Assembly: GCF_001428385.1 (NCBI RefSeq)
Contig: NZ_LMSK01000001.1
Coordinates: 1,355 to 65,354 of the forward strand
DNA length: 64,000 nt
Reading direction: 5' to 3'
Source of the DNA: Rhodanobacter sp. Soil772
GTDB taxonomy: Bacteria > Pseudomonadota > Gammaproteobacteria > Xanthomonadales > Rhodanobacteraceae
Shown here: positions 43,746 to 48,502 of the stretch, in pieces
Numbering within the stretch: position 1 is the first letter of the stretch
How the letters are laid out: the number at the start of each line of letters is the position of its first letter
Translations under genes and position numbers: made by a program
Notes under the pieces: model-generated
The model's input: the letters and a program-made list of their open reading frames with translations, nothing else
What the model was told of the DNA's origin: nothing
The model's database searches: none

Positions 43746-44103
43746 GCCGCGAGTGTCGCGGCAGGTCGTGGCCAGTTCAATCCCGGCGAGTTGGCGACGG
43801 CGTGGGCCGTCGGCCTGCGGAACCGCCGTGTCGGAGTTGCACAGGTGCCAGTTGACCCCCGGAACCTCGCCGTCGGGGTGGCGCATGTCCCCGTCGATAT
43901 CGGGAACCTCGGCGTCGAGGTGGCGCACGTCCCCGTCGATATCCGGAACCTCGACATCGGGGTTCGGCACGTCCTGGCCGGGTTTCGCTACCGCCTTGCC
44001 GGACGCGGCGCAGCGAGATCGGGCGCGTGGGTGCGGGCCGGTAGCGAGGGCCGCGTCACGCCCCGCGGATGCTCGTGCAGCCGCCGGAGGATTTCGGGGC
44101 CGG
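43746..44103. other. Gene-free stretch containing 42-bp repeats
   Basis: About 358 bp between the TraB/GumN start and the next small gene's stop. It is dominated by the 43819-43986 tandem repeats. No frame here has both a ribosome site and recognisable homology, and no promoter stood out. Confidence 0.5.
43819..43986. repeat. 42-bp tandem repeat, four units
   Basis: Units start with GGAACC at 43819, 43861, 43903 and 43945. Units 2 and 3 are nearly identical (ending TCCCCGTCGATATC), unit 1 is diverged and unit 4 is partial in its second half. Because 42 bp is 14 codons, every frame reads as a 14-residue repeat; none looks convincingly like a protein. Confidence 0.85.
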
Positions 44104-44349
44104 TCAGTCGCCCGAACGCCAACGCGGCGGTTCGCCCTTCAGCCAGCACACGGCCGTCAGGCCGAGGGTAAGCAACACCAGACTGATCGCGAACATGACG
44201 GGGTCGGCCGCTGGCTGCAGGGAACGAAAGACTAGCGCAACACACCCCGCGTAGATGGCGAGGCAAACCCAGCCCTGCCACCGAACCGGCAGACCCCAGC
44301 CCCAGCCGTAGCGCTTGGCGGGAAACCAATACTTGTTCTGGCTATCCAT
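44104..44349 (-). CDS. Small membrane protein, unknown
   Basis: An 81-residue protein with an aromatic N-terminus (KYWFPAKRYGWGWGLPVRWQGW) and two hydrophobic segments, ending KGEPPRWRSGD. AAGGAG precedes the ATG at 44349 at good spacing. It looks like a genuine two-helix inner-membrane protein of no assigned role. Confidence 0.65.
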   Translation of the reverse strand: MDSQNKYWFPAKRYGWGWGLPVRWQGWVCLAIYAGCVALVFRSLQPAADPVMFAISLVLLTLGLTAVCWLKGEPPRWRSGD

Positions 44350-44456
44350 TTCGGCTCCTTGGGAGGATTCGTGGCGTTTGGGTTTGAATGGACCTGATCG
44401 CGTTTTCGCCGCAGAGCGGGAAGGGGGGCGACCAACATGGCGTCGCCCGCACGGGC

Positions 44457-44843
44457 TTACGTCGGGGTTTCGTTGGTCAGCGCAAACGCGCTGGCGCGCG
44501 TCAGATCGAGCGGCCGCACCTCGCACACCAGGCCGTAGGCAAGGCACGGGTTCTCCGCCGCGATGCGCGCCGCTTCCTCCAGGCTGTTCGCGCGAATGAA
44601 CCAGTACCCGCCGACCACTTCCTTGGCCTCGGCAAACGGGCCGTCCGTGGCCGCCTGCCGCGACACCACCTTACCCTCGCGGGCGAGCCGATGCCCGGGC
44701 CCGATCCTGCCCTCGCTCACCAGCCGGTCGTACCACGCATAGAACCGGTCGATCGCGCCCTGGATCTCGTCGCGCGAGGCGTCCTTGTCCCACTGACCGC
44801 GGCAGAGGATGAGGTAGTCGGAGGGTGGGGTTGGCTGGTTCAT
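44457..44843 (-). CDS. YCII/DGPF-domain protein
   Basis: A 128-residue soluble protein of the YCII-related family. The diagnostic DGPFAEAKEVVGGYWF lies at about residues 70-85, with SLEEAARIAAENPC following. The fold is ferredoxin-like; members act in varied small-molecule reactions and many are unassigned. The ATG at 44843 matches the family start; a longer frame to 44906 is not supported. Last host-type gene before the AT-richer cassette region. Confidence 0.85.
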   Translation of the reverse strand: MNQPTPPSDYLILCRGQWDKDASRDEIQGAIDRFYAWYDRLVSEGRIGPGHRLAREGKVVSRQAATDGPFAEAKEVVGGYWFIRANSLEEAARIAAENPCLAYGLVCEVRPLDLTRASAFALTNETPT

Positions 44844-44989
44844 GGGTGGCTTCCGTTGGTGTTGCGTCGCGCCTATATGCGCGACCTCGCAGAAGAGAGG
44901 GGACACATGACCAGCAGTGGCCCGAAAGCTCAGGGCAAAAGCATCATGCGCATGGGGTTGATCGGAAGTCTCTTACGAAACTGTTAGGG

Positions 44990-45691
44990 CTAACGCTTTG
45001 GATGATAGTCAATAGCTGTGGGATCATAGATATCCCGCCTGATGTACTCGGATCCGTTATGCTCTGCCCAGCGCTGCATAAGCCGATCTATGTAACCATC
45101 AGCGAGGTGCTTGAATGTGCGGCAAGCACAAATCACTAGCATTTGGTTCTGGCGATCCCCGCCATTACTGATCTCATGAGACTCGAAGACAAGTAAGCAA
45201 TAATCGATGTGTCGTGACTTCTTGTTCAAGTACTCACAGACCCGGTAAGCGACAACCCCCGGATCGAGGGGCGCAATGCTCTCATTTAAGATGATCAGTA
45301 GCCCGGTGGAGTCAATGCCAAGATGCTGCGAGGTATGCATAATTTGCTCGTTCGCAGATCGACACATCTCCTCGGTGTTTCGCGTGACATCTCTGAGAAT
45401 CTTATGATGGAACCTATCGCTATCGGTTTGATCTTTGAATAGCTGCGTACTCACTATAGTGCCAAAGACAATGATGCCCGAATCTTCCAGGTGCTGATCT
45501 AGCCGACGATCGATCTTCGGTTGCGGGTCGTTCGTAACTGTCTTGACTTCGACAATGACGCTACGTTGATACAGAAGAAAGTCAGCTTTTCTAGTTTTTG
45601 GCGGAAAACAGAATTCTGGGGAATCAAGCCACTCCGAGTCGGGAAGGCTCTTCAAGAATTCTGTAAATCGATGTTCGAGAGAAGCTGGCAC
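44990..45691 (-). CDS. Cassette protein with PD-(D/E)XK-like nuclease motif (GTG start)
   Basis: A 233-residue protein of unknown family. Residues about 35-52 read KADFLLYQRSVIVEVKTV, a D-(x)n-E-x-K arrangement on two strands typical of PD-(D/E)XK nucleases; a preceding acidic region (SEWLDSPEF) could supply further residues. The remainder has no recognised domain. The GTG at 45691 lies six bases after the attC core; no good ribosome site. The stop codon TAG is part of a GCGTTAG sequence adjoining the truncated attC. AT-rich codon use unlike the host genes points to transfer. A nuclease or defence role is inference. Confidence 0.6.
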   Translation of the reverse strand: MPASLEHRFTEFLKSLPDSEWLDSPEFCFPPKTRKADFLLYQRSVIVEVKTVTNDPQPKIDRRLDQHLEDSGIIVFGTIVSTQLFKDQTDSDRFHHKILRDVTRNTEEMCRSANEQIMHTSQHLGIDSTGLLIILNESIAPLDPGVVAYRVCEYLNKKSRHIDYCLLVFESHEISNGGDRQNQMLVICACRTFKHLADGYIDRLMQRWAEHNGSEYIRRDIYDPTAIDYHPKR

Positions 45692-45696
45692 GTTAG

Positions 45697-45753
45697 CCCC
45701 AACGCTGGAGTTAAGTGGCGGCGAAGCCGTCCGCCTCGGACGAGTTGTTAGCG
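45697..45753 (-). repeat. attC recombination site 2
   Basis: On the minus strand it runs from CGCTAAC (45753-45747) to GTTGGGG (45703-45697), with an internal imperfect palindrome around GACGGCTTCGCCGCC and the tract CTTAACTCCAGCGTTGG. The layout and several blocks closely resemble the aadA-type attC of class 1 integron cassettes. It sits between the stop at 45754 and the GTG at 45691. Confidence 0.85.
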
Positions 45754-46404
45754 CTAAGCCTCATATTGCTCCATGAACTGCGGAAGGTACAATAAAAGAC
45801 TCCGGACGCTTTCAGCCGATACTTCGTGCCACTGTGCGTGCAAGGCCGAATTGCGAAAGTCTTTAAACCCAAGAAGAATACCTTTTGTTGCTTTAGTGAT
45901 GGCGCCGGCCTTGAATAGCTCCACGACAACGACGCTAAATTCTTGATTGAGCACCGTAGTAAGTTCGTGCTTTTCCGCAAGGCGCTTCGCTGAATCCTCA
46001 AGAACGGCAGCACCCAGGACCGCTGCCACCTCTGTACCGCCGTTGTCGAGCGCCTGGCTTGCGGCACTGATAAAATCCGACTTGATATCGAGCAGTACTT
46101 GAGTTCGTAGCTCTGCTAGGAGACCGTGCCTCAGCGCTTCCAATGTGCCATGAAGAATTCCTTCGGCAGATTGAAGATGAAATAGGGTTTCCTGCGAGAC
46201 AGTTCTTGCCAAGCTGCGAGCTTGCACATGGTCCGCGCCATAAATGTAGTTGCCAAGTGCAATACACTCAGTACAGAGTGCTGAAAACGCAACCGTGTCT
46301 CTGAACCTAGAGACAACATTGCTGGAGTGCCACGTGGCGGCCACGGCTGGAAATTTCGTGAGCACGCGCTCTATTTGTGCAATTAATTCTTCAGTAGAAG
46401 CCAC
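45754..46404 (-). CDS. Cassette protein with C-terminal HEPN-like RX4H motif (GTG start)
   Basis: A 216-residue, mostly helical protein. Near the C-terminus LLGFKDFRNSALHAQW contains R-N-S-A-L-H, the RX4H catalytic motif of HEPN ribonucleases, and the helix before it (GTEVAAVLGAAVLEDSAKRLAEKHEL) matches the usual HEPN/DUF4145-type lead-in. It may be an RNase toxin or abortive-infection protein; no antitoxin gene is next to it. The GTG at 46404 is preceded by AAGGGGAA. The stop (TAG) joins directly onto attC site 2. Confidence 0.6.
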   Translation of the reverse strand: MASTEELIAQIERVLTKFPAVAATWHSSNVVSRFRDTVAFSALCTECIALGNYIYGADHVQARSLARTVSQETLFHLQSAEGILHGTLEALRHGLLAELRTQVLLDIKSDFISAASQALDNGGTEVAAVLGAAVLEDSAKRLAEKHELTTVLNQEFSVVVVELFKAGAITKATKGILLGFKDFRNSALHAQWHEVSAESVRSLLLYLPQFMEQYEA

Positions 46405-46417
46405 AAATTCCCCTTCG

Positions 46418-46475
46418 CACTAACGCCTGAAATCAGCGGCGCGCGTAGCGCGTCCGCTGGATTGATTTGTTAGCC
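46418..46475 (-). repeat. attC recombination site 1
   Basis: On the minus strand it runs from GGCTAAC (46475-46469) to GTTAGTG (46424-46418). Between them lie AATCAATCCAGCGG and CCGCTGATTTCAGG, complementary around a GCGCG-rich tip, giving the long imperfect hairpin of attC with unpaired bases. The TAA stop of the upstream cassette gene is inside the first core, as is common. Confidence 0.88.
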
Positions 46476-47294
46476 TTTTTCGAGCGTTGCAAGTAGTTCC
46501 TTCATAGAACGGTCGATCCGCTCGAAATTAGCCTGAGCTTCCGCCTCATAGTCAGATGCTTCTGTTGCCAGCGCAAGCTCACCACGAATTGCGGCGGTAA
46601 GACGCATTTGCAGGGGACCAACCGAGCGCATCTCTTTCAGTAGGGCAATTGTGTATTCGCGCATCGCAAGGTTGCGCTCCTCGAAGCTCTTGATCCTATC
46701 TTCGCTAAGTTGCGTAGCGGCCTGTTGAGAATTGTCGAAGGATCGTTTTAGGGCCTCGAAACGCAACGGATCAGCGGAACCAGACTCATTGAGTTGAGTC
46801 ATTTCCGCTAGCACGCGCACTACTTCTGACTGCTTCTGGTCGTAGAACTCACCTGCGATCTGTATGGATGCTTGCAATGTATGAACCGGAGAGGCCTTAG
46901 CGAGCAGTGAAAAGAGCATCTCGGTGTATCTAGCTGTCAATTCGTTTGCCAGCTTGGCTGTTCCGGACTCCGCAACGAGCTGAAGCTTTATTGACGCCCC
47001 GAAAAAACCTGACAGGCCATCGGCAATATTTTCTTTCGTTGGGTCAAGTTGTGGAATCTTACCGAGGTAGTTGCCGACCTCAGCCATCGTTTCCGCGGCG
47101 CGCAGGTAGACGTCTTTTCGGAGAGAATGTATTCGGTCTTTGTCCTTCTCGGAAGATTCATGCGCCAACGTTTTGATGAGACGGCTCGTGTTACTCCTAT
47201 TTGAAAGCATCACCCCAAAGAAGGTAAGGGCTGATGCCAATATGGCAGCCCAGACAACATTGGGAATCATCGCAACGTAGTTAAGAAGATGCAT
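46470..47294 (-). CDS. Cassette membrane-anchored coiled-coil protein, unknown
   Basis: A 274-residue protein with one N-terminal membrane helix (about residues 10-32, NVVWAAILASALTFFGVML) followed by long helical, charged stretches likely to form coiled coils (SSEKDKDRIHSLRKDVYLRAAETMAEV and the C-terminal EAEAQANFERIDRSMKELLATLEKG). No enzyme motif recognised. It is the first intact gene of the array; the ATG at 47294 lies 4 bp after a GTTAGCC core and has no Shine-Dalgarno sequence. AT-rich relative to the host. Confidence 0.6.
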   Translation of the reverse strand: MHLLNYVAMIPNVVWAAILASALTFFGVMLSNRSNTSRLIKTLAHESSEKDKDRIHSLRKDVYLRAAETMAEVGNYLGKIPQLDPTKENIADGLSGFFGASIKLQLVAESGTAKLANELTARYTEMLFSLLAKASPVHTLQASIQIAGEFYDQKQSEVVRVLAEMTQLNESGSADPLRFEALKRSFDNSQQAATQLSEDRIKSFEERNLAMREYTIALLKEMRSVGPLQMRLTAAIRGELALATEASDYEAEAQANFERIDRSMKELLATLEKG

Positions 47295-47461
47295 AGGAGG
47301 CTAACGCTAAGTAGATTTCAAATCGCAGTGTAATCCTGCAGCCTATCCCGTGTCTGCGGTGTCACTTTTCCAGTCGTCGCTTTTTGAATCAATACCTTGG
47401 CTTGCCATGCGCAGCCTAACGCCGCAGCCTAATCCCGCAGCGTTTCGACGCACCTTTTGCG
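47295..47461 (-). other. Array start: degenerate cassette with 21-codon frame
   Basis: Contains GTTAGCC (47305-47299) and, about 110 bp upstream on the same strand, GTTAGGCTGC (47420-47411), with related AGGCTGC copies at 47434-47424 and 47350-47338. Between the cores an ATG at 47408 opens 21 codons (MASQGIDSKSDDWKSDTADTG) to a TAG at 47343. This has the shape of a tiny or decayed cassette whose attC is no longer recognisable, or of a former attI side. No integrase remnant seen. Confidence 0.4.
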
Positions 47462-48502
47462 TCACTTCGCTTCAACGCCCCGCAAGAACCCGATCAACCC
47501 ATCGAAATACACCTGCTGGTCGTCATACATCGCCATATGGCTCCCCTTCGGGCACAGCAAAAACTGCCCATGCGGCAGTTTCTTCGCCATGCCGGCCATG
47601 TACTTCGGATCCATGGTGTCGTGTTGCGCGCCGATCACCAGGGTGGGGACGGTGATCCGGTGCAGGTCCTTGCTGCGGTCCCAGTTCAGCAGGCGGCCGC
47701 TGGCGCCGAGTTCGCTGGGGCCTTGCATCAAGGCGTAGATCTGCTCGTTGATGTGGCCGAAGGAGCGGGTCACCGGCTCGGGCCATTGCGCCGAGGGCAT
47801 GCGCAGTACGTGCTGCTCGTAGTGCATCGGGGTGAGGATTTGCATGTAGCGCGGGTCGTCGGTGCGGTGTTCGGCTTCCAGCTTCTGCACTTCGGCGAGT
47901 TGTTTCTGATCCATCGCCGGCATCAGCACCTTGTGCGCGTAGTCGTTGTAGGCGGGGATCGAGTCGACCATGTTGGAGATCACCAGGCACTTCAGGTGCT
48001 GCTGGTATTTCAGCGCGTATTCGATGGCCAGCACGCCGCCCCAGGAGTGGCCGAGCAGGCAGAAGTTGTTCTTGTCCAGGTGCAGCGCCTGGCGCACCTG
48101 TTCCACTTCGTCGACGTAGCGGTCGATGGTCCACAGCGCATCGTCTTTCGGTTGGTCGCTGTAGGCCGAGCCGAGCTGGTCGTAGTAGTAGTACTCGATG
48201 CCGGCGCCCGGGAAATAGCTGTCGAATGCCTCGAAGTATTCGTGGGTGGCGCCGGGGCCGCCGTGCAGCAGCAACACCTTCAGCTTCGGGTTGTTGCCCA
48301 CGCGCTTGGTCCAGACGCGGAACGTGCCCTTGGGTGTGGTGATCGGGATCATCTTCACGCCGCCGGCAAGCACGTCGTCGCGGCCGCTGTGGTCGAAGTA
48401 GCCGGCACCGGGCGCGGTGGTGGCGGGCGTGGGGCCGCTGGCCATGGCGGCGGTGGCGGCCAGGGCCAGGCCGGCCAGCAAGGTGGCGATGCAACGCTTC
48501 AT
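47462..48502 (-). CDS. Exported proline iminopeptidase-like alpha/beta hydrolase
   Basis: A 346-residue S33-family hydrolase with a signal peptide (to about residue 21). HGGPGATHEY is the oxyanion region typical of proline iminopeptidases, GHSWGGVLA holds the nucleophile Ser, VIGAQHDTMDP the Asp and CPKGSHMAMYDD the His. It probably removes N-terminal proline or similar residues from peptides in the periplasm. Host-like GC content marks the edge of the cassette array. Confidence 0.86.
   Translation of the reverse strand: MKRCIATLLAGLALAATAAMASGPTPATTAPGAGYFDHSGRDDVLAGGVKMIPITTPKGTFRVWTKRVGNNPKLKVLLLHGGPGATHEYFEAFDSYFPGAGIEYYYYDQLGSAYSDQPKDDALWTIDRYVDEVEQVRQALHLDKNNFCLLGHSWGGVLAIEYALKYQQHLKCLVISNMVDSIPAYNDYAHKVLMPAMDQKQLAEVQKLEAEHRTDDPRYMQILTPMHYEQHVLRMPSAQWPEPVTRSFGHINEQIYALMQGPSELGASGRLLNWDRSKDLHRITVPTLVIGAQHDTMDPKYMAGMAKKLPHGQFLLCPKGSHMAMYDDQQVYFDGLIGFLRGVEAK

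Follow-up and report, generated by a model that had tools for sequence, protein, structure and literature searches.

The locus described here raises the question of how gene cassettes came to stand, and whether they may still be taken up, at a place in the Rhodanobacter sp. Soil772 genome that has no integrase gene beside it. The window (the whole 64,000-nt stretch of DNA that was analysed) carries a short array of three cassettes at this place, with the following features.

44457..44906, minus strand: YCII-domain gene, right flank (PF03795)
44983..44994, minus strand: truncated attC of cassette 3, R''-like half only (read from the sequence)
44990..45691, minus strand: cassette 3 gene, 233 aa, with a D-x(n)-E-x-K motif, presumably of PD-(D/E)xK type
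45697..45753, minus strand: attC of cassette 2, probably degenerate, of the family of the genome's main array (model R1, 66.3 bits, E 4e-14)
45703..46423, minus strand: cassette 2
45754..46404, minus strand: cassette 2 gene, 216 aa, weak DUF4145 similarity (E 0.2, below cut-off), RNSALH motif (by eye)
46418..46475, minus strand: attC of cassette 1, intact (model R1, 47.0 bits, E 3e-9; fold z -3.6)
46424..47304, minus strand: cassette 1 (crossover to crossover)
46470..47294, minus strand: cassette 1 gene, 274 aa, N-terminal membrane segment (by eye), no family over cut-off
47299..47305, minus strand: crossover core GTTAGCC of attI and first cassette
about 47301..47450, minus strand: predicted orphan attI element (type C), ~145 nt, at the 5' end of the array (homology and position)
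47325..47349, minus strand: proximal direct-repeat pair GGGATAGGCTGCA GGATTACACTGC (sequence and alignment)
47411..47436, minus strand: distal direct-repeat pair GGGATTAGGCTGC GGCGTTAGGCTGC, including the GTTAGSC match at 47414-47420 (sequence and alignment)
47462..48502, minus strand: proline iminopeptidase-family hydrolase gene (PIP), left flank (TIGR01250, 325 bits)

Both attC sites that an earlier, sequence-only reading had called clear are borne out at their minus-strand positions. To score them, a covariance model (R1) was trained on 28 other attC sites of this genome (25 from the array beside the integrase and three from another place), the window's own sites being excluded. When the window was scanned in full and without filters, R1 gave the two sites 66.3 and 47.0 bits, versus 14.3 bits for the third best match. 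Single-strand folding, which had been proposed as a further check, agrees for one site only: 46418-46475 gives a much better fold than shuffled sequences (z -3.6 for either strand), but 45697-45753 does no better than shuffles (z -0.4 and -0.6), one ordinary attC of the main array giving z -2.0 for comparison. Because of this fold and an altered R', the 45697-45753 site looks degenerate and is probably decaying. The truncated third attC that had been placed at 44983 is present as an R''-like CCCTAAC half, contained in the minus-strand sequence GTTAGCCCTAAC at 44994-44983 and followed by unrelated sequence, but R1 has no match at 44983-44994 in the filter-free scan of the window. Rfam has no match within 44000-48500. 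The extra GTTAGSC cores reported at the other end also exist, but one is the attI crossover core (47299-47305) and the other is part of a direct repeat (47414-47420). Counting such matches was rejected as evidence, since the window holds five versus 5.5 expected; the unusual point is that all five fall inside 44988-47420. In the alignment of the 28 Rhodanobacter attC sites, two L-box pairs covary (A-T to G-C in 5/28, G-C to A-T in 2/28).

The three cassette genes are, as had been noted, on the same strand, richer in AT than their surroundings (GC ~49-52%, versus ~61-72% just outside the array) and without an assigned function, with Pfam and NCBIfam matches to the three products only far below the curated cut-offs. 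The suggestion that such clusters often hold defence-related genes finds no firm support in the cargo here. PADLOC gives one weak match for the three products (E 0.012), and the 233-aa product has a Pfam DpnII-MboI match at E 0.048, below the cut-off; its D..E-x-K motif, which we take to be of the PD-(D/E)xK nuclease type, is common to two distant plasmid-borne relatives and is suggestive only as a sign of function. The 216-aa product has no relative on plasmids and none in viral contigs, the 274-aa product has one partial plasmid match, and no relative of any of the three was found among the loci searched. A search for a cassette promoter (Pc) between 44900 and 47500 found no sigma-70-like site on the minus strand and two matches on the plus strand, versus 2.3 expected.

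On both flanks the genes are ordinary host genes, as first read, and the YCII gene is also a neighbour in relatives G007, G009 and G028. The earlier statement that no integrase is visible is correct at the locus, but a search of the genome for intI finds one full-length IntI (TIGR02249, 472 bits versus a cut-off of 265) beside an array of 28 attC sites, on a contig other than the window's; TIGR02249 has no match on the window's own contig. The genome contains 54 attC matches in all, 28 beside IntI and 26 in seven further places (grouped by hand), including the window. Full-length cassettes common to these arrays are only ~80 and 85% alike, and shorter shared pieces, some of them past the final attC of the main array, are 97-100% identical. 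Lone attC sites away from arrays occur at C3:277577 and C1:547094, the second following a divergent copy of the attI element described below. The start of a secondary array of three attC sites at C2:896k resembles, by eye, a degenerate type B attI (C2:895.3k; L021, about 5273).

At its 5' end, judged by homology and position, the window array begins with the attI region of one IntI clade. This putative attI, whose outer limit near 47450 was read from the alignment, comprises two pairs of 13-nt direct repeats, a CAAG..TTGATT block and TTTGAAATCTACTTAGCG, which runs to the crossover. A sequence model of the element (R2), with the window copy among its training sequences, matches 47301-47422 at 78.6 bits and 47301-47431 (C1:48655-48785) at 86.5 bits. 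Across 60 loci (405 kb), R2 has five matches, all from the same genome (window, C2:28k, C3:289k, C3:389k and C1:547k) and all belonging to the sequences from which it was made, and in every case the first attC follows after 332-829 nt; at other attI types in these loci it has no match. No conserved RNA structure was found in the element, as expected for a double-stranded site.

The assignment to type C follows from the relatives, in some of which the same sequence lies directly upstream of intI. The Rhodanobacter IntI proteins form three main clades, each with its own attI. Among 49 intI matches in 45 Rhodanobacter genomes, all six of type C adjoin the type C element, which was not seen by any other IntI, a few of these having little upstream sequence. 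In a tree of 25 IntI proteins, the five C-type members group together with support 1.0. The proximal stretch TCTAMTWAGCG is alike in the three attI types. Four IntI (L233-L236), ~50% identical to all three main clades, were left unclassified. Genomes G022 and G023 hold three and four integron integrases, these four among them. In the genome of the window, the single IntI is of type B, IntI-C was not found, and the window attI differs in type from the attI beside the genome's own intI.

Bare copies of the type C element are widespread in the genus. The motif GGATTANACTGCNNTTTGAAATCNACNNAGCG, allowed up to three mismatches and searched irrespective of attC, has 44 matches in 29 of the 45 Rhodanobacter genomes, and its reversed control has none. 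Together with a five-mismatch site from the window's genome and a four-mismatch site beside intI, these gave 46 aligned sites, six of which have a divergent intI at about -190 to -1165 and 40 of which have no full intI. Of the latter, 36, spread across 23 genomes, have no IntI-C in the same genome, bearing in mind that draft assemblies may hide an intI elsewhere in genomes scored as lacking one. Where there is room downstream, 34/42 copies have an attC on the same strand 230-1343 nt away (R1, E up to 0.01); no opposite-strand attC was seen at element copies. The other eight have no attC at E 0.01, and a filter-free scan adds one weak attC. The attC is absent at 5/8 sites without a GTT core versus 3/34 with one (Fisher p 0.003, with orthologous sites not independent), and three of the eight GTT-less sites nonetheless have attC. 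Grouped by left flank, the 46 sites form 23 groups, five of which are bare sites common to two to eight genomes; a further member of the iminopeptidase group, L091, is missed by this criterion.

An exact search of 84,980 genomes with a degenerate element pattern finds nine stretches, all Rhodanobacter. With R2, matches are found across the family in 51/197 genomes and 13/26 genera, and among 19 of the 30 family loci returned, which were checked with the Rhodanobacter attC model, 12 have attC (E up to 0.1) and seven do not. Weaker family matches (e.g. G125, G166, G175) end before the crossover core; such core-less matches may be decayed sites or represent another use of the repeats.

Bare sites are also found for the other attI types. 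The type A/B core has 78 matches in 33/45 genomes (two in the reversed control), of which 27 have an intI match no more than 400 bp away and 51 do not, some of the 51 being on short contigs. Twenty of the 51 bare sites were fetched, and 19 have downstream same-strand attC. A short N-terminal intI stub remains at five of these 20 and an intI stub at 2/40 bare type C sites; since stubs remain at some sites, loss of intI is probably how bare attI come about. The other 38 bare type C sites, the window included, have no integrase stub, so that this loss is not directly seen at the window. As bare attI of all three types are scattered in Rhodanobacter, a single cell may combine several capture sites with just one integrase or a few.

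Comparison of orthologous sites bears on how the cassettes arrived. Past the iminopeptidase stop codon, homology with the relatives continues for ~157 nt and ends at GCG/TTAG (47299-47305), and, with other species, the homology of the left flank breaks off 0-9 nt beyond the window's G/TT point. In all 44 comparable pairs of orthologous intI-less sites it ends at most 19 nt past the crossover. The stop-to-crossover distance at the PIP locus is 133-159 nt in seven species, which leaves no room for an intI in any of them. Identity there averages 80% in the proximal element, compared with 32-57% in other intergenic parts and 88% in the coding flank. Several species have the same element and left flank at this spot, followed by unrelated cassettes. 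When the window was compared with five relatives at the PIP site, no common cassette was found at the DNA level, and what does align past the crossover consists of attC pieces and of sequence lying beyond the array. A third locus has both flanks in common in two species, which differ there in one cassette.

The best sign of recent use in trans comes from another species, G007. There, a cassette of an array next to intI recurs, without a single difference over 351 nt, as the first cassette of a bare type A attI in the same genome; both copies have exact crossovers, and their neighbours differ on either side. This case is of type A, in a genome with IntI-A, and is one of seven genomes compared. 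There is no support for satellite attC sites being closest to those of their own main array: among 19 sites, one is closer, nine are ties and nine are closer to other genomes.

Taken together, it is likely that the locus is a chromosomal integron remnant that has lost intI and kept an attI into which cassettes were taken, probably by an integrase acting in trans. An ancestral IntI-C integron would have stood beside the iminopeptidase gene and would have lost intI before several Rhodanobacter species split. The bare attI, with its G/TT core and TCTAMTWAGCG stretch, could then be read by another IntI in the cell, and cassettes would be gained and lost through this integrase in trans, in the present genome most likely the single IntI of type B. 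In the window, three cassettes would be left, with their attC sites eroding. For the window site, the in-trans step is one that we infer; the genome's own IntI is B rather than the cognate C, and IntI-B would have to use attI-C.

The present array looks old, because one attC is degenerate and the last one is truncated, and the same two features are consistent with a locus that is a fossil only. IntI-C would then have built the array before its own loss, the species would have kept different cassettes of one large ancestral array, and nothing would have been inserted since. Differential deletion could indeed leave different cassettes in each species, integrase stubs at 7/60 bare sites examined point the same way, and the cognate IntI-C is not in this genome. 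However, conservation of the element's proximal part extends to species that lack IntI-C, the window has no DNA-level cassette in common with the five relatives compared, and a full identical cassette lies beside a bare attI in G007, though of type A. On balance we regard a pure fossil as unlikely, while still a serious alternative to a remnant supplied in trans.

Chance landing of the cassettes at an attG-type site, the element then not being an attI, would invoke an established route of insertion, to judge from the available parts of two reports (PMC12444791, PMC12901181). It is highly improbable here: the target is long and conserved, is one and the same element as the attI region of IntI-C integrons, and holds cassettes at this position in several species. 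Insertion into a target unrelated to attI was rejected for this reason. That part of the main array was relocated to this place, or that a nearby intI is missing from the assembly, is scarcely credible, for although cassette arrays break assemblies, and in G042 one contig breaks off 16 nt past the crossover and the one carrying the YCII gene stops ~1 kb beyond it, the window locus lies 47-50 kb inside a 1.4-Mb contig, its junction with the iminopeptidase gene is common to seven species, and its attI type differs from that beside the genome's intI.

If the remnant supplied in trans is extended to the other bare sites, Rhodanobacter and part of its family may have a distributed integron, in which one or a few integrases serve many fixed bare attI, also across attI types, with cassettes being taken up and reshuffled at several loci at the same time. 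We put this forward tentatively, as a possibility for which the case is almost evenly balanced. The three IntI clades in one genus, each with its own attI, are in any event a natural set for the study of integrase-attI specificity.

Among known systems, the locus agrees with the formal definition of a CALIN, as it had first been described: two attC, three cassettes and no neighbouring intI. That definition is silent on attI, and the label therefore ignores what distinguishes this locus: an attI is still recognisable at the 5' end of the array, and the locus is one of many of this kind. With sedentary chromosomal integrons it shares an attI with cassettes at its core, an attC array and the attI region of the genus's IntI-C integrons, but the intI gene that a complete integron has at the locus is absent. 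Like attG insertions, it places cassettes away from intI; attG sites, however, diverge from attI and attC and are widely scattered, according to the accessible parts of the reports (PMC12444791, PMC12901181), whereas at the window one long conserved element is reused.

In the parts of one survey available to us, 2961 CALINs are set beside 2760 complete integrons and are read as degraded integrons, and Shewanella is described, likewise in a source available in part, as having many attC away from intI. IntegronFinder, according to the available text of one report (PMC9024848), does not detect attI outside class 1; as such attI are not modelled, bare attI are missed by standard tools. No conserved integrase-free (bare or orphan) attI is described in the literature searched, which was itself available in part and did not include most subscription papers. 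Were many CALINs to begin with a bare attI used in trans, they would be working capture sites, and conservation of the attI would explain their recurrence at the same places in related species.

The closest parallel is with Xanthomonas, in which, in the accessible part of the report (PMC12444791), CALINs are found apart from intI in about half of the genomes and, among the well-sampled species, occupy seven loci. As at the window, these integrase-free clusters recur across several species at a small number of positions, intI being located elsewhere, and their fixed loci are contrasted by the authors with scattered attG insertion; the same part of the report differs from the present case in giving no attI at those places. 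If bare attI used in trans were also to lie at the start of these clusters, the fixed positions of the Xanthomonas CALINs would have a simple cause.
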